From assembly GCF_003966565.1 (NCBI RefSeq), contig NZ_AP018718.1:1612001-1676000 (forward strand): 64,000 nucleotides of DNA. The letters are read 5' to 3'. The position numbers and the translations under genes were made by a program. The stretch comes from Sulfuricystis multivorans. GTDB taxonomy: Bacteria > Pseudomonadota > Gammaproteobacteria > Burkholderiales > Rhodocyclaceae. The notes below the pieces were generated by a model. That model had not been told where the DNA came from and did not search any database. It saw only the letters and a program-made list of their open reading frames with translations. Below, piece after piece: positions 3,621 through 50,357 of this stretch (position 1 is its first letter; each line of letters begins with the position of its first letter).

Positions 3621-5438
3621 TCAGTGAGGGATTTGTCTAACTAAAGTTTCCAGCGTCATGAGACGTCGCCACTGTTCGTTTCGAAACTTGGCTTGAACAT
3701 TATCCAATTGCTTAAGGTAACTCATCTCTGGAAGAAAAAGCCCGGTATTTAGTAGCTCTAATGATTCAAATGCTTTAGCCAAGCCACTTTCATAAATAAA
3801 GCCAGCAACATCTTCGCTAGTATGAACCGTGGATTGGAGATTAAGGGTAGAAATGCGGAGCCTGAGTCCTAGTCGAGGTGCCAGTTTGCTCCAGACCTTT
3901 CCGCCGTAATGGCCAAGCATTGGTAGAAAGCGCCAAACGTTGAATAGCGTAGCGGGAGCGGGAGGATAACCATGTTCAAGTGGTATGTTCGCCAACGGCG
4001 GGGCAAAGCGTTGAAACAGGCGGCGCACGAGCAGGCTGCGAAAGCGCGCGTCGGCCCGGGCAGCGAGGATCGGATCGAGCACCTGGGCAAAGGCGATCGG
4101 TGAAAATGCCGGCCAGAGTTGATTGGTGCTGCTGGTGATGCGCCCCTGCCAACGCTGCATACGCAGGGTGTAATAAACGCAATCCATTTGCGTCGTGTTG
4201 GGATAGTTGATGATGGGCACAATGGCACGGCTGGCGACTTCGGCCATATGGGACGCGAGATCAAGCTGTGCGGCAGGTGAAAAAATCGATTTGTCGTAGG
4301 GAATGGCGGCAAAGCGTTTGCGCGCGACCATTGCAACATCGAGTGGATGACGTCGTGCCAAGCGGGGCCAGAGCAGTTCCCACCAATAACCGCGCGCCAG
4401 CTCGCCGAACGAGCCGTTGAGACTCATGCCATGTTCATTGGCGAGTCGGCGGTGGATGTGGAGGATGCGAGCGAAGTCGAAAGCATCATATTCGCCATCG
4501 GTCATGCGCACGGCAGCATCGAATTCCTCGGCGGTTGGCAGCGACGGTGAGCTGATGTTCTGGTGCTTCAGACCGAGTGCCGAGGCAATTCGCGCAGCAA
4601 CCGTGACATCCGGATGATCGCTGCTCCCCGAGACGGTAGTATGGAACGGCCGCTGTGCATCGAGCAGGCCAGCCAGCAGCAGACGTGAATCGTAGCCGCC
4701 GGTGAGATCGGAAACGAGGGGCTCGCGGGTATCAGGCAAGGCTTTGAGCACCTCGACCAGAGCGGCATGGGTTCGGTCGACAGCATCGTCGAGTGCCAGA
4801 CTTTCCGGCTCGATAGCCGAAAAATCCCAGTAGCGACGGCTCCGCGCACCGTTGGCATCGATGGTCAGCACCGTGGCCGGGCCAATCTTGCGGACATCGC
4901 GCCACAACGACCGGTCTTCGTAGATGATGCCGGTCGCGATGAATTCATGCACTGCGAGGGGATCGAACGTGCTCGGTGCGCATTGCGCCAATACAGCGGA
5001 AGAAGTACAGACGGCTACGCCATCTGCCAACTGCCGCCAATATATATGCAGGCTGCCACAGCGATCGGTGATGACATGCACCTGACGGCTGCGCTGGTCG
5101 ACGATGAATATCGCAAACAAGCCCTGTAGACGGCACGCCAAACCATCCGCGCCATGGGTGAGGTATTGCTCGATCAGCCAGCTTCCGTCGCGGCCTTTTT
5201 CAGCCGGGAGAGGCAGCCAGGTGCCGAAATCGGCGATCCAGACTTGGTCGTCTGTTGAACGGGTGATGCGTTTGTCGGTTGTCTTTGCCGGCGGCGCCAC
5301 CGCGAGGGAAGCGTTGGCAGAAATTGCGCTATCGCTGATCTTCACTCCTTTGAAGCTGCATAACGCTTGGACGCCTTTTTGGAAACTCGGCACTTCAAAT
5401 TGGCCGGCAGCAGGAACAAACAGGAAGGCGTGGCTCAT
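3621..5438 (-). CDS. asparagine synthase-like protein without glutaminase cysteine
   Basis: A 605-residue protein with the two-domain layout of asparagine synthetases. The N-terminal Ntn-hydrolase-like domain (about 1-200) includes LQGLFAIFIVD and the C-terminal PP-loop ATP-pyrophosphatase domain carries DLTGGYDSRLLLAGLL (246-251 as TGGYDS, where SGGxDS is usual). The N-terminus is MSHAF, not MCG, so the nucleophilic Cys2 needed to release ammonia from glutamine is missing. It may use free ammonia or another amine, or act on a sugar or peptide carboxylate. This differs from the true amidotransferase at 12162-14060. It lies in the EPS operon 12 bases before the acyltransferase. Such truncated-function homologues are common in EPS and lasso-peptide clusters; the real substrate is unknown. 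Confidence 0.8.
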   Translation of the reverse strand: MSHAFLFVPAAGQFEVPSFQKGVQALCSFKGVKISDSAISANASLAVAPPAKTTDKRITRSTDDQVWIADFGTWLPLPAEKGRDGSWLIEQYLTHGADGLACRLQGLFAIFIVDQRSRQVHVITDRCGSLHIYWRQLADGVAVCTSSAVLAQCAPSTFDPLAVHEFIATGIIYEDRSLWRDVRKIGPATVLTIDANGARSRRYWDFSAIEPESLALDDAVDRTHAALVEVLKALPDTREPLVSDLTGGYDSRLLLAGLLDAQRPFHTTVSGSSDHPDVTVAARIASALGLKHQNISSPSLPTAEEFDAAVRMTDGEYDAFDFARILHIHRRLANEHGMSLNGSFGELARGYWWELLWPRLARRHPLDVAMVARKRFAAIPYDKSIFSPAAQLDLASHMAEVASRAIVPIINYPNTTQMDCVYYTLRMQRWQGRITSSTNQLWPAFSPIAFAQVLDPILAARADARFRSLLVRRLFQRFAPPLANIPLEHGYPPAPATLFNVWRFLPMLGHYGGKVWSKLAPRLGLRLRISTLNLQSTVHTSEDVAGFIYESGLAKAFESLELLNTGLFLPEMSYLKQLDNVQAKFRNEQWRRLMTLETLVRQIPH

Positions 5439-5483
5439 CGCGAGAAGTGCTTCCGGAAAAAGTGTTGCGATCGATTATACGGA

Positions 5484-6713
5484 CTACATGGAGGTAACAG
5501 TTTTATCTACGAAGGTGCCGTTCCGCCAGCGCCGACTATGCGCTGGCGAGAATCTGCCGAAATAGTGCCAATTGCCCGGCGGTGGTCGGCTGCCAGCGAA
5601 GCGCTCGGCATAGGCACGGGTGAGGTTGCGGGACGGCATGCCAGATCGCAACCGGCCTATGGCACGCACGATGCCATTGGCGCTGCGTTCATCCATCAGC
5701 ACACCGGCTTCGGGGGCTGCGACGACTTCCGGTGTGCCCCAGACCTTGCTGGCGACGACCGGCGTGCCGCAGGCCATGGCTTCGAGCAGCACGTTGGCCC
5801 AGCCTTCGCGGCTGGAGGCGAGTACCAGGCAATCGACAGCGCTGTAGAGGGTGCGCAGCTGGGTTTGCGGCATGGCGCCCAGGAAATGCACTCGCTCCGT
5901 CATGCCCAGACGCGCAGCCAGCGCGCGCAGGCGGGTTTCCTCTTCGCCGCCGCCGGCGATGAAAAGCTCGGCATCCGGAATCTGCGCCAGTGCTTCGATG
6001 ACGAGGTGGTGGCCCTTGCGTTCGATGAGGTGGCCGACCGAAGCGATGGTGAAACGGTCGCTCATGCCGAAGGCAGCACGGGCCTGTCCGCGGTCTTCGG
6101 GATGGAAGAGTTCCAGATCGACGCCGTTGCGCAGCACGGTGATCTTTTCCGCCGGGGCGCCGAGTTCCACCAACGCATCTTTGAGCGCCTGGCAGACGGT
6201 GATCATGTGGTCGCACTCGTGGGCGGCCTGCAGGATCATGCGGCGCGGTTTTGCGAATCGTGGGATCAGGTTGATGTCGGTGCCGCGCGCGGTGATGACC
6301 ACGGGTTTGCGAAGCGTCTTGCCGATCAAGGTGGCGGCGACACCGTCCGGATAGAAGTAGTGGGCATCGATGAGATCGAAATCGAAGCCTGCGGCGATGA
6401 GCTTTCTTGCCGCTGCCAGTCCGCATCGGGCGAGGCTCGCGGGCGCCAGGTTCATGCCAATCTTCGGCAGCAGCAGGTAGCGCGGATGACCGACCTCGAT
6501 GCCGTGGCGACTTTCATGGGCCGGCACGGCGGCATGCTTGGCGTATTCACCGAAACGCGGGTGTTTGAAGGGAAACCACGGCACGGGGGCGACGACGCCG
6601 GTTTCGACTGCGCCGCTGGCCAGCAGATGCCGCAGCCTTGTTTCGACGAAGATGCCGTGGCTCGGCCGTACGCTGCTGGGATAGAGGGTGGAGAAGAGGA
6701 GCGTGCGGATCAT
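5484..6713 (-). CDS. family 4 glycosyltransferase, C-terminus frameshifted
   Basis: As read, 409 residues. GT4 features are clear: LLFSTLYPSSVRPSHGIFVE, ARGTDINLIP, VLRNGVDLELF, GHLIERKGHH, and the EX7E motif in SSREGWANVLLEAMACG. The last 40 or so residues (after YAERFAG) are proline/arginine-rich and unlike the family. One extra base near 5594 would restore AWQPTTAGQLALFRQILASA and a TAG stop at 5536-5538, which is the usual family ending. The gene therefore carries a one-base deletion (or a sequencing error) replacing the last 20 residues with an unrelated tail. The catalytic core is intact, so it could still work. A copy of the dispersed repeat follows the restored stop directly. Confidence 0.85.
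   Translation of the reverse strand: MIRTLLFSTLYPSSVRPSHGIFVETRLRHLLASGAVETGVVAPVPWFPFKHPRFGEYAKHAAVPAHESRHGIEVGHPRYLLLPKIGMNLAPASLARCGLAAARKLIAAGFDFDLIDAHYFYPDGVAATLIGKTLRKPVVITARGTDINLIPRFAKPRRMILQAAHECDHMITVCQALKDALVELGAPAEKITVLRNGVDLELFHPEDRGQARAAFGMSDRFTIASVGHLIERKGHHLVIEALAQIPDAELFIAGGGEEETRLRALAARLGMTERVHFLGAMPQTQLRTLYSAVDCLVLASSREGWANVLLEAMACGTPVVASKVWGTPEVVAAPEAGVLMDERSANGIVRAIGRLRSGMPSRNLTRAYAERFAGSRPPPGNWHYFGRFSPAHSRRWRNGTFVDKTVTSM
5516..5535 (+). repeat. dispersed 20-25 bp repeat, copy 1
   Basis: TGCCGTTCCGCCAGCGCCGA, 19 of 20 matches to the consensus seen at 9935-9954. It lies immediately after the restored stop codon (5536) of the frameshifted glycosyltransferase. It is not palindromic. 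See the findings for the whole family. Confidence 0.8.
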
Positions 6714-6724
6714 GGAGATCGCTG

Positions 6725-6744
6725 TGCCGTCCCGCCAGCGCCGG
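6725..6744 (+). repeat. dispersed 20-25 bp repeat, copy 2
   Basis: TGCCGTCCCGCCAGCGCCGG, followed by GTTTT. It sits in the 53-base gap between the PIN toxin stop and the glycosyltransferase start. It is identical to copy 3 over the first 19 bases. Confidence 0.8.
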
Positions 6745-6766
6745 GTTTTGACCTTACCTGCATTTT

Positions 6767-7180
6767 TTACACAGCCTCGATCCGTAGTCCAGCCCTCCCT
6801 GCTGCTTCGAGCTGTCGTGCGTCTGCCGATACGAAAACATCCGCCTGCAATGCAACGGCGCTACCGATATGAAGGGCATCCATGCCACGCAGAGCATTCG
6901 ATTCGAGGCAGGCTATCGATTGGGCCAGCACCTCTGGCGTCAGATCACAAATCGCGGCATCTTCGATGTCCGCCAGCAGCAGGGTTTTTAACTGCCGATA
7001 TTGTGTGTCGTCGACTTTGCCCTCACGGCGCAAGCGACAGAAAACAGAAATAATCTCGGGCAGCGCAATCGCGGAAAGCCCGATTTCCGTCGCCTGATCG
7101 CACCACTCTAGTACTTTGTCGGTACCGGCTTCGCTGATGTAGCGCTTGGCGAAGGCCGAACTGTCGAAGAAAACGCGCAC
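6767..7180 (-). CDS. PIN-domain ribonuclease toxin (VapC-like)
   Basis: A 137-residue PIN-fold protein. Acidic metal-site residues are visible in VFFDSSAFAKRY (Asp6), ALPEIISVFCR (Glu), MDALHIGSAV (Asp) and VFVSADARQLEAA (Asp), the four-acid pattern of VapC-type Mg-dependent RNases, which typically cleave tRNA or rRNA. It is 12 bases downstream of a Phd/YefM-type antitoxin and should form a toxin-antitoxin operon with it. The pair separates two blocks of EPS genes and faces the same way, so it may be partly co-transcribed with them. Length and motifs are normal. RNA target unknown. Confidence 0.88.
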   Translation of the reverse strand: MRVFFDSSAFAKRYISEAGTDKVLEWCDQATEIGLSAIALPEIISVFCRLRREGKVDDTQYRQLKTLLLADIEDAAICDLTPEVLAQSIACLESNALRGMDALHIGSAVALQADVFVSADARQLEAAGRAGLRIEAV

Positions 7181-40260: not shown

Positions 40261-41039
40261 AGCCGCGGCTTCCCGGGCAGCTGCTCTTTGCGCTGCTTTG
40301 CTGCCTGATGCTCGCGCTGCCGGCGCGTGCCGGGCTGCCCGACACGATCGAACGCATCAAACCTTCGCTGGTCGTCATCGGCCTCTTCAACAAACTGAAA
40401 AGTCCCGCGTTCCAAATGCGCGGCACCGGCTTCGCCGTTGGTGATGGCCGGCTGATCGCCACCAATGCCCATGTCGTGCCGGAAATCACCGCTAGCGATA
40501 CCGGTGAGGATCAGCTCGCGGTTCTCGCCAGGTTCGGCAGCGAACGCCGCGTGATTCCGGCGCGCCTGGTGGCGCGCGATGCCGACCACGACCTGGCGCT
40601 GCTGCGCTTCGACGGCCCGCCACTAACCACCGTGACGCTCGGTGACTCCGATGCCGTACGTGAAGGCCAGGCCATCGCCTTCAGCGGCTTCCCGATCGGC
40701 AGCGTGCTCGGCTTCTCACCGGTGACCCATCGCGGCATCGTCTCGTCGATCACGCCGATCAGCGTGCCTGGCAATAATGCCCACCAGCTCAAGGCCCAGT
40801 CGATCCGCAGTCTGCGCAGCGGATCGTTTCCGATCTTCCAGCTCGACGCCACCGCCTACCCCGGCAACAGCGGCGGCCCGCTGTTCGATGCCGACAGCGG
40901 TGAAGTGGTCGGCATCATCAACATGGTGTTCATCAAGACGACGAAAGAATCCATCTTGGAAAAACCGTCGGGGATCAGTTATGCGATTCCGGCCAAGCAT
41001 CTCGCCGAGTTGCTGAGGAATAGCGAAACCAGGCGCTAG
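40257..41039 (+). CDS. periplasmic trypsin-like serine protease
   Basis: A 260-residue S1-type protease with a signal peptide (LLFALLCCLMLALPARAG). The triad is visible: His72 in IATNAHVVPE, Asp112 in DADHDLALLRF and Ser205 in ATAYPGNSGGPLF. There is no PDZ domain, unlike DegP, so it is a stand-alone protease. It closes the plus-strand prs operon after the transglycosylase (overlap). Its TAG stop shares bases with the TAG of the convergent nucleotidyltransferase gene (CTAG at 41036-41039). It may mature or remove secreted PEP-CTERM proteins, a guess from context. Confidence 0.9.
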   Translation: MKPRLPGQLLFALLCCLMLALPARAGLPDTIERIKPSLVVIGLFNKLKSPAFQMRGTGFAVGDGRLIATNAHVVPEITASDTGEDQLAVLARFGSERRVIPARLVARDADHDLALLRFDGPPLTTVTLGDSDAVREGQAIAFSGFPIGSVLGFSPVTHRGIVSSITPISVPGNNAHQLKAQSIRSLRSGSFPIFQLDATAYPGNSGGPLFDADSGEVVGIINMVFIKTTKESILEKPSGISYAIPAKHLAELLRNSETRR

Positions 41040-42130
41040 CTCACCGTTTCGGATTCTTGCCGCAAGGCTCGCCAAGACTTGCGCAGCAAATGCGGCAGCA
41101 ATAACCTGAGTGGCATGCGTAGCCAATGGCCGCGCAAATAGAGCGTCTGTTTGGCCAGAGCAAAGCCGCGACTACGCACACTGGGGTGGATTCCTTGTAA
41201 TAGCGGAGCGTAGAGGGCATGCATGGCACGTAGAACCGGCAGCGACGGGCATGCATCGGCCAAGTCGCGTTCGGCTTTTTCCAGTCCTTCGAGCTGGAAG
41301 ACACGGCGCAGGAAATGCACTGCGAGAAACAGAGGCCGTTCAAGGCCAATGATCTGTGCGCGCGCAACCAGCCGCGTGACGAAATCCGCGCTCTCGGCCT
41401 GGCGCGATTTCAACAGCTCGACCAGATCATAAAGATTGCGCAGCGCGGCATCCGCTTCCCCTTCGGCGAACAAATGCACCGCCGCATGGAGGAATTGATC
41501 CTCATCCGACAACACCAGCACACCCGCCAAAGCGCCTGCTGGCCGCGTAGCGGCAAAGACGGCCGTCGTATCGGCACGATAGCGCGCAGTGAGCGGTGTC
41601 AGAGCATGATGTAGGTCCAGCGTCGTACCGCGATGAATCTGGCGTAACGGCGGCACCTCGTGCATCCACTGTCGATAATAGCGTTGGTCATAGGCATCGC
41701 TGGTCGTCGTCAGCCAGCCATATGTCATCAACTGTGTTTCGACCTCGCCGAGTCGCGCGCGTGGCACCATTACATCGATGTCGCCGAAATGACGGTGATG
41801 CGCCAGCGGCAGGCCATCGGCGACATAGGCGGCACCTTTGAGTAGAATCGGCATGACGCCGATCGGTTCGAGCGCCAGGGCGATCTGCCGGCATTCCCAG
41901 AGCACCGTTTCATTGCGATGGGCGATGGTCTGTCTTGCGGCGGAAAAGATCGGCTGGGCGAGCGAAGGAATCTCGATTGAGATCGGGCTTTCCTGCAATC
42001 GCACGGCGAGTGCCGCAACCAGATTGGCCGTGCGTGCCTGGCGAATCGCCAGTCCCCAGTCGGCTGCCGACCAACACCGCGCTGCCTCGGGCTCGATGAG
42101 TGCCTTGAGCAGCAGGTTATGCTCAAACAC
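41036..42130 (-). CDS. nucleotidyltransferase-family protein of the HPr-rel-A cassette
   Basis: A 364-residue protein of the NTP_transf_5 type (PF14907). The nucleotidyltransferase core has LLKGAAYVADGLPL then HRHFGDIDVMVPR with Asp117 and Asp119, and the rest is helical with conserved HHALTPLTARYR and DQFLHAAVHLF. It is expected to transfer a nucleotide to some acceptor. The best start is GTG at 42130, which overlaps the TGA of the kinase gene; upstream residues are frame read-through. It forms the last gene of a secreted protein, PqqD-like, HprK-like, nucleotidyltransferase operon. It ends convergently against the protease with shared stop bases. Confidence 0.82.
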   Translation of the reverse strand: MFEHNLLLKALIEPEAARCWSAADWGLAIRQARTANLVAALAVRLQESPISIEIPSLAQPIFSAARQTIAHRNETVLWECRQIALALEPIGVMPILLKGAAYVADGLPLAHHRHFGDIDVMVPRARLGEVETQLMTYGWLTTTSDAYDQRYYRQWMHEVPPLRQIHRGTTLDLHHALTPLTARYRADTTAVFAATRPAGALAGVLVLSDEDQFLHAAVHLFAEGEADAALRNLYDLVELLKSRQAESADFVTRLVARAQIIGLERPLFLAVHFLRRVFQLEGLEKAERDLADACPSLPVLRAMHALYAPLLQGIHPSVRSRGFALAKQTLYLRGHWLRMPLRLLLPHLLRKSWRALRQESETVS

Positions 42131-43058
42131 CCCTTTCGCTCCCTTCCACAATCTCGGCAAAGCCGGCAATTGCCTCGTCGAGGCTGCCATACTCGAGACT
42201 GTAGCAATCGCATTGGCCAACCATATCGGCCAAGGCTGCAAAGCCCGGCCTCCCCAGAACGGGCAGATTGAAAGCATTCTTGGCCAGCTCGATCGCGGCC
42301 TCTGGACGGCCAAGCGGCACCAGCGACCAAGACACCCCCGCAACGAAGCGCGGAAAGACCAACCAGCGCGGAACCGCCTTTTCCCGGTTGCCCATCATGC
42401 TATGCGCCGTCGGACGCAAATGTGCTACGGTACCCTTGACCGTATCCTGCACCGCAGGTGTGAATATCGCTTCGGGGAAATGTCCGCCGATGATCCCGAT
42501 CGAAGCATTCTTCAGGCTCACCGGTCGTACGAAGGGTTCGAGTCGGCCGGCATGCGGATCGAGCAGGGCGAGTTCGTCGGACAGCAGCCGCCAGCCAGAA
42601 AGCATCAGTGCCGCCGCAAGCGTACTTTTCCCGGAACCGGGAGGAGCAGGCAGGATCAGGGCTTGTTCACCCTGCGCCAATACCGCGCTGTGACACATCA
42701 GATACTGTTGGGCGCTGGTCGTCACGCACCAGTTCATCGCCCACTCGAGCAAAGGGAAAACTTGGCCACGCGGCAGAGGCGCAAATGGACGGGCACCATC
42801 GAATTCGAGTTCGATCAAGGGCTTGAACCAGCGGCGCAGGCCAGTCGCCGGTTTGACCCTCAAGTCGAAGTGAATGAATGCAGGCTCGTCGAGGATCTCG
42901 TAACCGCCATAAGCGAGGCGTAGCGCCGGCAATAGCTCGCCTACCTGGGCGCGCAACCTGAACACGAATGGCGGAGCGGAAAAAACGAGGCCGCAGCTGG
43001 CCAGAAGCTGCTGCAGTGTTTCGAGGCTCAGGTCATCGAGGCGTTTTCGCTCGGACAA
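42123..43058 (-). CDS. HprK-related kinase A
   Basis: A 311-residue protein matching the HprK-related kinase A family (TIGR04352). Walker A is LPAPPGSGKSTLAAAL (about 136-151), preceded by MCHSAVLAQGEQAL and followed by GWRLLSDELALLDP with an Asp/Glu pair (161-162). True HPr kinases act on a PTS protein, but no PTS gene is near, so the substrate is probably a partner in this cassette. The only plausible start is TTG (43058), overlapping the PqqD-like gene by 31 bases. The next gene overlaps by 8 bases. All three cassette genes thus use TTG or GTG and depend on coupling. Confidence 0.88.
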   Translation of the reverse strand: MSERKRLDDLSLETLQQLLASCGLVFSAPPFVFRLRAQVGELLPALRLAYGGYEILDEPAFIHFDLRVKPATGLRRWFKPLIELEFDGARPFAPLPRGQVFPLLEWAMNWCVTTSAQQYLMCHSAVLAQGEQALILPAPPGSGKSTLAAALMLSGWRLLSDELALLDPHAGRLEPFVRPVSLKNASIGIIGGHFPEAIFTPAVQDTVKGTVAHLRPTAHSMMGNREKAVPRWLVFPRFVAGVSWSLVPLGRPEAAIELAKNAFNLPVLGRPGFAALADMVGQCDCYSLEYGSLDEAIAGFAEIVEGSERGV

Positions 43059-43360
43059 CAGCGCACCACTCCCGCTTTGTAAAGGCTGTCGACGATCCCG
43101 CGCACTGCTGTGCTGCTCAAGCCGAGTTCAGGAAAGGCTTCGATGGTGTCGGCAGACAACGTCGCGAGGTCGAGAGGCTGAGCATCCAATCGCTGCAGCA
43201 GATGGGCCGCGACTCGGTCTACCGCGAGCAGTTCTCCCGAAAAGCAATGATAAACGACACCGCCTTCTTCGGGGAAAAGCCGCAAACACCACCCTTCCGC
43301 TAGCCGATAGAAGAGGGAGTCAGAAACCTCAACGCCGAGATTGGAGCATTCCGCAGCCAA
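43028..43360 (-). CDS. PqqD-family peptide chaperone, HPr-rel-A system
   Basis: A 110-residue protein with the PqqD layout: VSDSLFYRLAEGWCLRLFPE, then GGVVYHCFSGELLAVDRVAA, LLQRL, and a C-terminal winged-helix half ending in DSLYKAGVVRC. It matches the PqqD-like member of the HPr-rel-A system (TIGR04353). PqqD-type domains bind leader peptides and hand them to a modifying enzyme. The start must be TTG at 43360, as an in-frame stop lies three codons upstream and no Met follows until the end. It begins 17 bases after the Tat-signal protein gene, which is the obvious candidate substrate. Confidence 0.82.
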   Translation of the reverse strand: MAAECSNLGVEVSDSLFYRLAEGWCLRLFPEEGGVVYHCFSGELLAVDRVAAHLLQRLDAQPLDLATLSADTIEAFPELGLSSTAVRGIVDSLYKAGVVRCCPSENASMT

Positions 43361-43377
43361 CTGATGCTACGCAAATG

Positions 43378-43956
43378 CTACGGCCATGGGCTATTGCCGA
43401 CCAGCACGTCGAGGAAAGCGCGCACCGTCTGCTCAGACCATGCCGTGCCATTGACACTGTAGGGTTGGCCGCAAAAGACCAATCCCCACATCTTTTGAAT
43501 GTCAGCAGTGGTGAACTGCCCTTGAGCGTAACCGGCTGCCGCATCCAGATAGGCGGAGATCAGATCGGCCGCCAAGGCCCGATCACCCCCTCCTCCCTGC
43601 ATGTTGAGGATATCGATCAGTTTCGTATCTGAAGTAATCCCGAGCGCAGTTAGTCTGCTACCAATACAAAAGCCCGCTTGCCCCACCGTCGTCTGTTGGG
43701 AAATCGGCCAAGCCTTATTTTTCCAGTAGCCGTGGGAATGGCAGGTCGGCAACTGCTGGGGCCGATGGCTGGTAGCCGGATTGAGAGTGATCGACGTAAA
43801 GGAAGACGGGCTCGCACATACACCGCTCGCCAGAGCGCTACCGCTCTTCAGCGAGGCCAGAACACCGCCTGTGATTCCGGTGGCGAGAAAACGGCGCCGC
43901 CCCGCTAACCTCGGGAGGGAACCTGTCTCATTTCTCCGGACCTTTTCATCGTTCAT
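43378..43956 (-). CDS. Tat-signal secreted protein with SHGYWKN motif, sigma-54 driven
   Basis: A 192-residue protein of unknown function. The N-terminus has a twin-arginine-like signal (AGRRRFLATGITGGVLASLK, then ALASG). The mature part has four cysteines, a PTCHSHGYWKNKAWP motif (xGYWKN is shared by many secreted bacterial proteins of unknown role), a Gly-rich NMQGGGGDRALAADLISAYL stretch, and ends SPWP with no PEP-CTERM anchor. A sigma-54 promoter lies 43 bases upstream (43999-44013), with the same upstream element as the PEP-CTERM gene. It heads the operon with the PqqD/HprK-like/nucleotidyltransferase genes and may be their substrate. Confidence 0.75.
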   Translation of the reverse strand: MNDEKVRRNETGSLPRLAGRRRFLATGITGGVLASLKSGSALASGVCASPSSFTSITLNPATSHRPQQLPTCHSHGYWKNKAWPISQQTTVGQAGFCIGSRLTALGITSDTKLIDILNMQGGGGDRALAADLISAYLDAAAGYAQGQFTTADIQKMWGLVFCGQPYSVNGTAWSEQTVRAFLDVLVGNSPWP

Positions 43957-43998
43957 TTTTTTCTTGCGCCCAAAACAAACACTTCACGGTAAATTTGA

Positions 43999-44013
43999 GC
44001 AATTCTCGTGCCA
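43999..44013 (-). promoter_or_regulatory. sigma-54 (-24/-12) promoter of the Tat-protein operon
   Basis: On the minus strand TGGCACGAGAATTGC, an exact TGGCAC-N5-TTGC match. It is preceded by C and followed by TCA, giving an untranslated leader of about 30 bases before the ATG at 43956. The 20 bases directly upstream (44014-44033) match those of the PEP-CTERM promoter at 14 positions, including AATCAAAT. PrsR is the likely activator. Confidence 0.88.
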
Positions 44014-44033
44014 GAGTTATATCCATTTGATTC
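44014..44033 (-). promoter_or_regulatory. conserved element upstream of sigma-54 promoter (copy 1)
   Basis: On the minus strand GAATCAAATGGATATAACTC directly abuts the -24 box. The equivalent region at 50266-50285 reads AAATCAAATCGTTGTTATTC. Conservation beyond the sigma-54 boxes suggests a shared regulatory site or a promoter-architecture element. Confidence 0.55.
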
Positions 44034-49323: not shown

Positions 49324-50187
49324 TTACGCGTTTCTGCGACGACGCAGACCGGCCAGCCCAAAGAGGCCGAGACCAACCAGCGCCAATGAAGCAGGTTCTG
49401 GAACTTCACGGATGCGCATGAATATGCTCAGATCACTCGTTACGCCTTCAGCCGTCCAGACAGTACACGCCGGTCCAGAACAAGGGTAATTTGTCACCGA
49501 GTTATTAAATTCATCGATTTTGAATTCTGCATAATAGGTCTTGCCACCATCGACGAAAGTAATTGGGGCGAGGCCGCTGCCCGGAAAATTGAATAAGTCA
49601 TCGCAAATACTACCATTCGGATTCCCCAATGGGCAAGATCCCACATTCAAGGTTTCCGTGAAAGTGATCGGTATGCCATTAGGATCGATATGAGATCCGA
49701 TATAAAGCTCAGAGTATATCAGCGCACTCGCCAAAGTCGCTGCAGCGGCATTGATTGCACTATTCTTATGATATAGGGTTGATATTTTTTCCCAAGGACC
49801 AAAGGTGATAGGATCAAAGCCTGTCGACACCATCCCAGACCACCCTAATACTCGCAATCCACTATAGATTTGATCGCTATTACCTGTGACCGCAAAAGGA
49901 TCAAAGCCGACATTCCCAAGTCCTTGGTTCGTCGAGGCATACGACCACGCAATAGTATCGTAAGTCCCGGCCGGCGGAGTCACACCCGATGGATGCTCAT
50001 ACCATACGATATCATCGTGAGTATTGCCATTACCGCCGCCAGTACTAAAGAGCCATGCATCACTCACATCTAAGCCACTATGCTCTTGATAGGAGAGAGT
50101 CGTCGTAGCAGAAGCCTGCATAGAACCGATTGCCAAGACCCCAAACAACGCAGTTGCGAAGGTCTTACGTAGGAACTTTGATTTCAT
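49324..50187 (-). CDS. PEP-CTERM domain secreted protein
   Basis: A 287-residue exported protein. The signal peptide (MKSKFLRKTFATALFGVLAI, then MQASA) is followed by a beta-rich Gly/Thr/Ser/Asn-rich domain with few cysteines. The sorting tail (262-287) is VPEPASLALVGLGLFG, a hydrophobic helix, then RRRR and NA, a textbook PEP-CTERM signal for exosortase A. It is probably anchored or released at the cell surface with the EPS. The ATG at 50187 has AGGAG 7 bases ahead; the open frame to 50349 has no support. It has its own sigma-54 promoter and a terminator, so it is a monocistronic target of PrsK/PrsR. The DNA is AT-richer than its neighbours. Confidence 0.95.
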   Translation of the reverse strand: MKSKFLRKTFATALFGVLAIGSMQASATTTLSYQEHSGLDVSDAWLFSTGGGNGNTHDDIVWYEHPSGVTPPAGTYDTIAWSYASTNQGLGNVGFDPFAVTGNSDQIYSGLRVLGWSGMVSTGFDPITFGPWEKISTLYHKNSAINAAAATLASALIYSELYIGSHIDPNGIPITFTETLNVGSCPLGNPNGSICDDLFNFPGSGLAPITFVDGGKTYYAEFKIDEFNNSVTNYPCSGPACTVWTAEGVTSDLSIFMRIREVPEPASLALVGLGLFGLAGLRRRRNA

Positions 50188-50250
50188 TTGATTACTCCTG
50201 ACCGTGTTGGGATACCAAACATCAATTATCTTACTGCTCAAGCATATGTA

Positions 50251-50265
50251 GCAATACACGTGCCA
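50251..50265 (-). promoter_or_regulatory. sigma-54 (-24/-12) promoter of the PEP-CTERM gene
   Basis: On the minus strand TGGCACGTGTATTGC, an exact TGGCAC-N5-TTGC match preceded by C. The leader to the ATG (50187) is about 50 bases. PrsR, encoded at 35210-36565, has the GAFTGA loop needed to open such a promoter. Confidence 0.92.
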
Positions 50266-50285
50266 GAATAACAACGATTTGATTT
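50266..50285 (-). promoter_or_regulatory. conserved element upstream of sigma-54 promoter (copy 2)
   Basis: On the minus strand AAATCAAATCGTTGTTATTC directly abuts the -24 box and shares 14 of 20 bases with 44014-44033. It is also AT-rich, so it could serve DNA bending or PrsR contact. Confidence 0.55.
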
Positions 50286-50357
50286 TAAATAACTTTATCC
50301 TGATGCGCCACCCACCACGGGAATGGCTGTAAAAAATATCGACAGCCATTCATACTG

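Follow-up and report, generated by a model that had tools for sequence, protein, structure and literature searches.

Among the closest described relatives of the system reported here are the clusters for linear polyphosphorylated peptides (LPP) of Bacillota. These combine a RiPP recognition element (RRE; RiPP, ribosomally synthesized and post-translationally modified peptide), an HprK-like kinase and an NTP transferase with precursors whose N-terminus is conserved and whose C-terminus varies (PMC13381572). According to the sections of that report available to us, an S3A exchange in the precursor abolished phosphorylation and deletion of the kinase removed it; the precursors are 35-200 aa long with YxxP leaders, and the clusters also include a SipW-like peptidase and an MsbA-like transporter and frequently lie near capsule loci. 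The available part of a review describes HprK-like kinases (PadeK, PsmK) that phosphorylate a C-terminal serine in the lasso peptides paeninodin and pseudomycoidin, and states that lasso kinases require a His-Lys-Asp-Asp catalytic set (PMC9266682). NCBIfam already names an HPr-rel-A system, made up of a TIGR04352 kinase and a TIGR04353 PqqD family peptide chaperone. The system itself is therefore not novel, although its model names imply a peptide partner and name none here. We found no paper on the HPr-rel-A system in the open-access literature. Here we describe a four-gene operon of Sulfuricystis multivorans (Rhodocyclaceae) that carries a member of this kinase family next to a probable substrate; it lies in a stretch of 64,000 nucleotides (contig NZ_AP018718.1, positions 1,612,001 to 1,676,000), referred to below as the window.

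The operon occupies positions 41036-44013 on the minus strand and consists of a sigma-54 core followed by genes for a 192-aa twin-arginine protein, a PqqD-like protein, an HprK-related kinase A and an NTP_transf_5 protein. In the direction of transcription its parts, including those of the twin-arginine translocation (Tat) precursor, are:

43999..44013, minus strand: sigma-54 (-24/-12) core TGGCAC-N5-TTGC, an exact match; similar cores precede relatives' genes
43378..43956, minus strand: 192-aa Tat-leader precursor, the proposed substrate; open reading frame (ORF) with ATG start, same-leader homologues beside the cassette in other genomes
43828..43956, minus strand: Tat-type leader, residues 1-43, with R20-R21; RR invariant in alignment A2 (described below), leader-profile hits, cleavage after A43 judged by eye
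43792..43818, minus strand: motif C47-x3-S51-x3-S55, the proposed modification site; conserved in type-1 precursors, in a low-confidence stretch of the model
43028..43360, minus strand: PqqD-like protein (TIGR04353-like), predicted RRE; TTG start, profile score, model resemblance
42123..43058, minus strand: HprK-related kinase A (TIGR04352) with H123/K144/D161/E162; TTG start, 344.7 bits
41036..42127, minus strand: NTP_transf_5 (PF14907) nucleotidyltransferase-like protein with D-x-D; GTG start, 172.7 bits

An earlier reading of the letters made without database searches (the sequence-only reading) had given this gene order with the same coordinates and TTG, TTG and GTG starts, and our ORFs agree with it throughout, including the gap of 17 bases (43361-43377) between the precursor and PqqD-like genes and the overlapping of the three cassette genes; the overlaps measure 31 bases between the PqqD-like and HprK-like genes and 5 bases between the HprK-like and NTP_transf_5 genes. 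We consider it probable that the operon encodes a dedicated precursor together with its modifying enzymes, an explanation which as a whole includes phosphorylation, a further modification, Tat export and a role in the extracellular matrix. The partnership between cassette and precursor is well supported by comparison of gene neighborhoods, as follows.

Our search of 300 genomes of the order (the first sample) with TIGR04352 revealed the kinase above cut-off in 49 genomes, the window's included; 36 more had matches below cut-off and were excluded from follow-up. The surroundings of the other 48 kinase genomes and the best 80 of 223 relatives, less 6 duplicates and with the window added, made up a set of 123 loci. 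This comparison, which the sequence-only reading had suggested, bears out the proposed link: a Tat-leader gene was found beside the cassette in 121 of these loci, and the remaining two (L158 and L159) are cut by contig ends, having 667 and 450 bases before the kinase. A precursor matching the leader profile was present in 120 of the 123, directly before the PqqD gene in 110, behind the NTP_transf_5 gene in 9 and on the opposite strand in 1; that of L069 was found by regular expression. Among ORFs of at least 140 aa, the Tat regular expression, devised after inspecting the first 48 loci, matched 86 of 146 in the slot ahead of the kinase versus 196 of 3684 outside it, and the leader profile was trained on the 86 precursors chosen in this way. 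The two partner genes are equally constant: a PqqD/RRE-like gene adjoins the kinase in 121 of 123 loci (the exceptions being L090, where a weak match lies further off, and L092), and an NTP_transf_5 relative is found in 121 (the exceptions, L114 and L124, are on contigs that end soon after the kinase). Two of the nine loci with precursors behind NTP_transf_5 have two copies, and tandem precursor pairs were seen downstream of the kinase at L125:2541-4040 and L152:5689-7104 (plus strand).

For profile searches we built alignments of kinases (A1, 27 of 38 picked sequences), type-1 precursors (A2, 68 of 70 listed), segments (A3, 40 of 74, namely 20 from first-sample genomes and 20 from relatives' loci, with four that had a misplaced RR and 30 others left out) and PqqD-like proteins (A4, 64 of 73 listed), each with the window sequence added. 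A2 and A3 include cassette sequences and so serve mainly to show absence elsewhere. Across the 300 genomes the A2 profile gave 42 matches in 41 genomes, of which 38, all leader-bearing, fell in 38 kinase genomes within 4 kb of the kinase; the remaining four were body-only matches inside frames of 1046-2888 aa, and two of these came from genomes that lack the kinase. The 39 best matches of a leader-only profile (E up to 2.4e-6) likewise all lay within 4 kb of the kinase, and the next (E = 4.1e-5) was another protein; at E <= 0.01 this profile matched in 94 of the 300 genomes, mostly weakly and in other proteins. Within the 49 kinase genomes it gave 39 strong matches at the cassette and weak ones in G179, G187 and G020, with no match at the cassette in G067, G049, G294, G118, G240, G137 and G210.

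Of 360 class-level genomes that formed a second sample, 40 contained the kinase above cut-off, and three of these (G000, G015, G049) are shared with the first sample. In these 40, counted like the XrtA data below without regard to kinship among the genomes, the kinase adjoined an A2 match in 33, a leader protein of another body type in 6 (G314, G432, G511, G390, G600, G611) and a contig edge in 1 (G556). Five further A2 matches in this sample were to the body only. Leader-bearing matches were also found in G482 and G582, whose sole kinase relatives score below the TIGR04352 cut-off (two such relatives were viewed among the class genomes). Of ten plasmid records with a match three were viewed, and those of Vibrio alfacsensis and Sphingomonas parapaucimobilis encode a Tat-leader hypothetical protein upstream. 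Their cassettes lie at L207:7860-9855 and L208:8224-10847. Judging by record titles, the hosts of the cassette are what we take to be Alpha-, Beta- and Gammaproteobacteria.

The secreted protein of the window matched no family in NCBIfam (E up to 0.1) or Pfam (E up to 1), and scans of 69 type-1 and 6 further precursors found no credible NCBIfam or Pfam family, with stray weak matches in single members. Its C-terminus, ...LVGNSPWP, has no PEP-CTERM tail, as had been noted before. Among the precursors, 105 of 122 share one large body family (type-1) and the others form seven small groups of 1 to 7 that are unlinked at E 1e-3. The A2 relatives share 18-32% identity with the window protein (the computed mean over columns, 13%, includes many gapped ones), and the only invariant columns are the two arginines, present in all 69 sequences, and S51 and S55. 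Over the type-1 set S51 is kept in 104/105, S55 in 104/105 and C47 in 102/105, and 26 of 27 type-1 precursors outside this set (three from one genus) have C-x(1-6)-S-x3-S behind the leader. The SHGYWKN motif, by which the sequence-only reading had named the protein, is not its defining feature, its H being replaced by P in 88/105 type-1 relatives. Conservation falls on the Tat-type leader and a serine motif, and the body is replaceable.

An AlphaFold model of the window protein is confident for residues 71-180 (blocks of 89-97) and scores 46-66 over residues 1-70. Because both serines lie in the low-confidence stretch, packing of the fold seems a less likely reason for their conservation. Among the 24 non-type-1 precursors the N-terminal C-x(1-6)-S-x3-S motif is found in just one (L130), and 21 have [CA][WFYLMV]xS[FLIVA] within the last 40 residues, versus 91 of 4015 control ORFs. 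On a FastTree tree of the kinases the body types group together (10 changes versus a shuffled mean of 19.8), a pattern that shared descent alone can also produce. Outside the cassette, PGYWKNH-like body domains were also seen without a leader in frames of 207-2888 aa (L203-L206, L271-L274), and the N-terminal serine pattern is missing in 6 of these 8 and present in 2. The window version of the body domain matched no Pfam family and no solved fold. Two precursors have unusual composition: L077 has a Tat leader followed by a serine/glycine/asparagine-rich tail, and that of L051 carries a serine-rich insertion.

Of the enzymes, the kinase is a clear member of HprK_rel_A (TIGR04352; 344.7 bits, cut-off 200). 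H123, K144, D161 and E162 are invariant across all 28 A1 sequences and, when aligned to HPr kinase rather than to the lasso kinases, stand in register with its His-Lys-Asp-Asp set, the fourth position being Glu, not Asp. The predicted model of the PqqD-like protein (mean predicted local distance difference test, pLDDT, 83) had TbiB1, PqqD and TfuB1 as its best Foldseek matches, with a probability of 1.00 but E-values of only 0.006-0.03, and its profile picks up lasso RREs by sequence as well (TbiB1, E = 0.0005; TfuB1, E = 0.003). We therefore predict a winged-helix PqqD/B1 fold of the lasso-RRE type. Given its position, and given that 64/65 members of A4 match TIGR04353 at E <= 0.01, the window protein appears to be a divergent relative of that family. 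The NTP_transf_5 protein scores 172.7 bits against PF14907 (gathering cut-off 31.2), and both Asp residues of the D-x-D motif are retained in at least 90% of its relatives.

The setting of the operon is that of an XrtA/PEP-CTERM exopolysaccharide locus. The sigma-54 core TGGCACGAGAATTGC (43999-44013, minus) is exact, in keeping with the near-perfect promoter recorded earlier, and ends 42 bases before the precursor ATG. By itself such a core is weak evidence: when one mismatch is permitted, 10 matches occur in the window versus a shuffle mean of 6.6, and the genome has 10 exact matches versus 2 for a reversed control pattern. It gains weight because the precursor genes of relatives carry similar cores. 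Within 300 bases upstream and with GG and GC fixed, a core with at most one mismatch precedes 37 of 119 precursor genes, where the reverse strand yields 1 of 119 and order-1 Markov resamples about 0.8, and at most two mismatches give 78 of 119, compared with 5 on the reverse strand and about 9 expected; these are the 119 of 122 genes with enough upstream sequence, and they are related rather than independent. The sequence-only reading had asked whether such a promoter accompanies the kinase in other genomes, and these counts support it.

A second exact core (50251-50265, minus), about 6 kb away, precedes a protein whose C-terminal tail we judge to be PEP-CTERM-like, and an NCBIfam scan of the window placed the XrtA/PEP-CTERM genes EpsB_2, PrsR and PrsT near the operon. 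XrtA was above cut-off in 46 of the 49 kinase genomes of the first sample versus 26 of the 251 others. Kinase and XrtA share a contig in 19 genomes, no more than 60 kb apart in 15 of them. In the window's own family both are found in G000, G111, G020, G067 and G187 and neither in G150, G218, G248 and G278. The link to XrtA is thus one of co-occurrence, together with the second core, and PrsK/PrsR may act on the precursor promoter, as the sequence-only reading had suggested. Compared with the XrtA/PEP-CTERM system itself, the precursor shares the locus, the kind of promoter core and the co-occurrence across genomes, but has a Tat-type leader in place of the PEP-CTERM tail. The listed 341-aa ATG frame at 49324-50349 extends past the second core, so its true start is probably further downstream.

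By analogy with LPP and pseudomycoidin, we propose that the precursor is most likely phosphorylated on a conserved serine before Tat export, in an XrtA exopolysaccharide setting. The precursor would be captured in the cytoplasm by the PqqD-like RRE, probably through its leader or the stretch that directly follows, and handed to the HprK-related kinase. The residue phosphorylated would be S51 and/or S55 in the window protein and, for most other body types, a C-terminal serine. Perhaps NTP_transf_5 would next cap or extend this phosphate by adding a sugar or a nucleotide, much as PsmN is reported to act on phosphoserine. Once folded and modified, the protein would leave through Tat, signal peptidase would remove the leader, and the exported protein may act outside the cell, in the matrix of the XrtA/PEP-CTERM exopolysaccharide programme. 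Tat exports folded proteins finished in the cytoplasm, so this route would suit modification before export.

The likeness to LPP, as far as the available sections describe it, extends to the discrete RRE, HprK-like kinase and NTP transferase, to the conserved N-terminus and variable C-terminus of the precursors, to a serine near the leader, phosphorylated in LPP (Ser3 of the core) and the proposed acceptor here, and to overlapping lengths (35-200 aa in LPP, 192 aa here) (PMC13381572). The present system differs in its Tat-type leader, its confidently predicted folded domain, its proteobacterial hosts and a window leader without YxxP; neither a SipW-like peptidase nor an MsbA-like transporter is among the four operon genes (the search for them was confined to the operon). 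With the tailoring of paeninodin and pseudomycoidin, in the part of the source available, it shares an HprK-like kinase, which in those peptides acts on a C-terminal serine, and a nucleotidyltransferase homologue (PMC9266682). Unlike the lasso systems, the operon has no lasso core peptide, and neither a macrolactam cyclase nor a B2 leader protease is among its four genes (here, too, the search covered the operon).

Several observations weigh against this proposal. The window PqqD-like protein scores 29.5 bits against PqqD_rel_X (TIGR04353), under the cut-off of 35. Pfam TAT_signal matches just 1 of the 69 A2 precursors, so that Tat export rests on the RR motif, and residues 1-46 of the window precursor contain no Y and no W, which leaves the published YxxP/WxxP site absent. 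The body types do not all share one acceptor motif, and the L077 and L092 precursors fit neither serine motif. On contig 20 of G593 (L268) a second precursor of 401 aa (about 5908-7110, minus) has no cassette within the 12 kb retrieved, though a cassette on a different contig might modify it in trans, and a Parasedimentitalea plasmid has a weak kinase relative and a nucleotidyltransferase gene with no annotated precursor upstream. The NTP_transf_5 step is the least certain, because in the sections available deletion of the NTP transferase LppN led to no detectable change in LPP (PMC13381572); PsmN, as far as its source describes it, is linked to hexoses on phosphoserine and may act through a host enzyme (PMC9266682).

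The conserved serines themselves could serve recognition rather than modification. As a variant of our proposal, C-x3-S-x3-S may be the site recognized by the RRE, with the true acceptor elsewhere and differing by body type; published leaders, in the sections available, place the RRE site close to the modified residue (PMC13381572), and a window leader without YxxP/WxxP needs some other recognition site. Yet the motif occurs in just one of the 24 non-type-1 precursors, while a single profile finds the PqqD-like proteins of the class, and we regard this variant as possible, though not the version we favor. A more far-reaching form of the proposal is rather unlikely: a leader-guided, RiPP-style pathway acting on folded-domain proteins and coupled to Tat, in which an NTP_transf_5-dependent sugar on phosphoserine joins the protein covalently to the XrtA exopolysaccharide through a phosphodiester-type link.

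Slightly less likely again is that the enzymes have a different substrate, such as a lipid or a polysaccharide precursor, and that the Tat protein is a co-expressed partner that is never modified, for instance a matrix or carbohydrate-binding protein. The adjoining exopolysaccharide genes and the XrtA counts would suit this, as would the type-1 bodies that exist without a leader (207-2888 aa) on different contigs or at sites with no cassette detected. However, the leader and the cassette are common to several bodies that show no relationship at E 1e-3, and leader-guided modification accounts for this better than a single protein function would; an RRE-like gene stands next to nearly every kinase, and the two serines are the best-kept residues after RR. 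Tat passengers often have dedicated leader-binding chaperones. The kinase and RRE might accordingly serve folding or export of the Tat protein (as chaperone or quality control with transient phosphorylation), with NTP_transf_5 working elsewhere and the mature protein unmodified, and this is favored by a leader more specific than an ordinary Tat signal (the leader-only profile), by NTP_transf_5 genes on the opposite strand from the kinase in 5/6 class loci of other body types and by the silent LppN deletion (PMC13381572), but we consider it improbable, since the near-constant presence of NTP_transf_5 implies that it belongs to the same function as the cassette, and in LPP and paeninodin, in the sections available, phosphate is a stable part of the product (PMC13381572, PMC9266682).

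With the leader-guided phosphorylation we propose, the HPr-rel-A system gains a probable substrate family and specific serines; we did not find this family, its leader, its serine motifs or the sigma-54/XrtA setting described in the open-access literature. If the proposal is true, RRE-guided serine phosphorylation extends beyond linear and lasso peptides to Tat-exported proteins of Proteobacteria, and the exopolysaccharide/PEP-CTERM programme, which the part of the literature available to us ties to floc formation in activated sludge, gains a protein-modification branch.

Finally, related arrangements with smaller products were seen in the two class genomes whose below-cut-off kinase relatives were viewed. 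In G582 (L270, about 4656-5942, minus) such a relative is accompanied by a PqqD protein and by three small frames of 77-106 aa whose Tat leaders resemble one another; NTP_transf_5 was not found within the 8 kb around, and the arrangement is possibly a sibling system with small peptides. In G482 (L269, 3585-6138, plus) a weak HprK_rel_A relative occurs together with a PqqD-like gene and a single Tat-leader frame of 91 aa.

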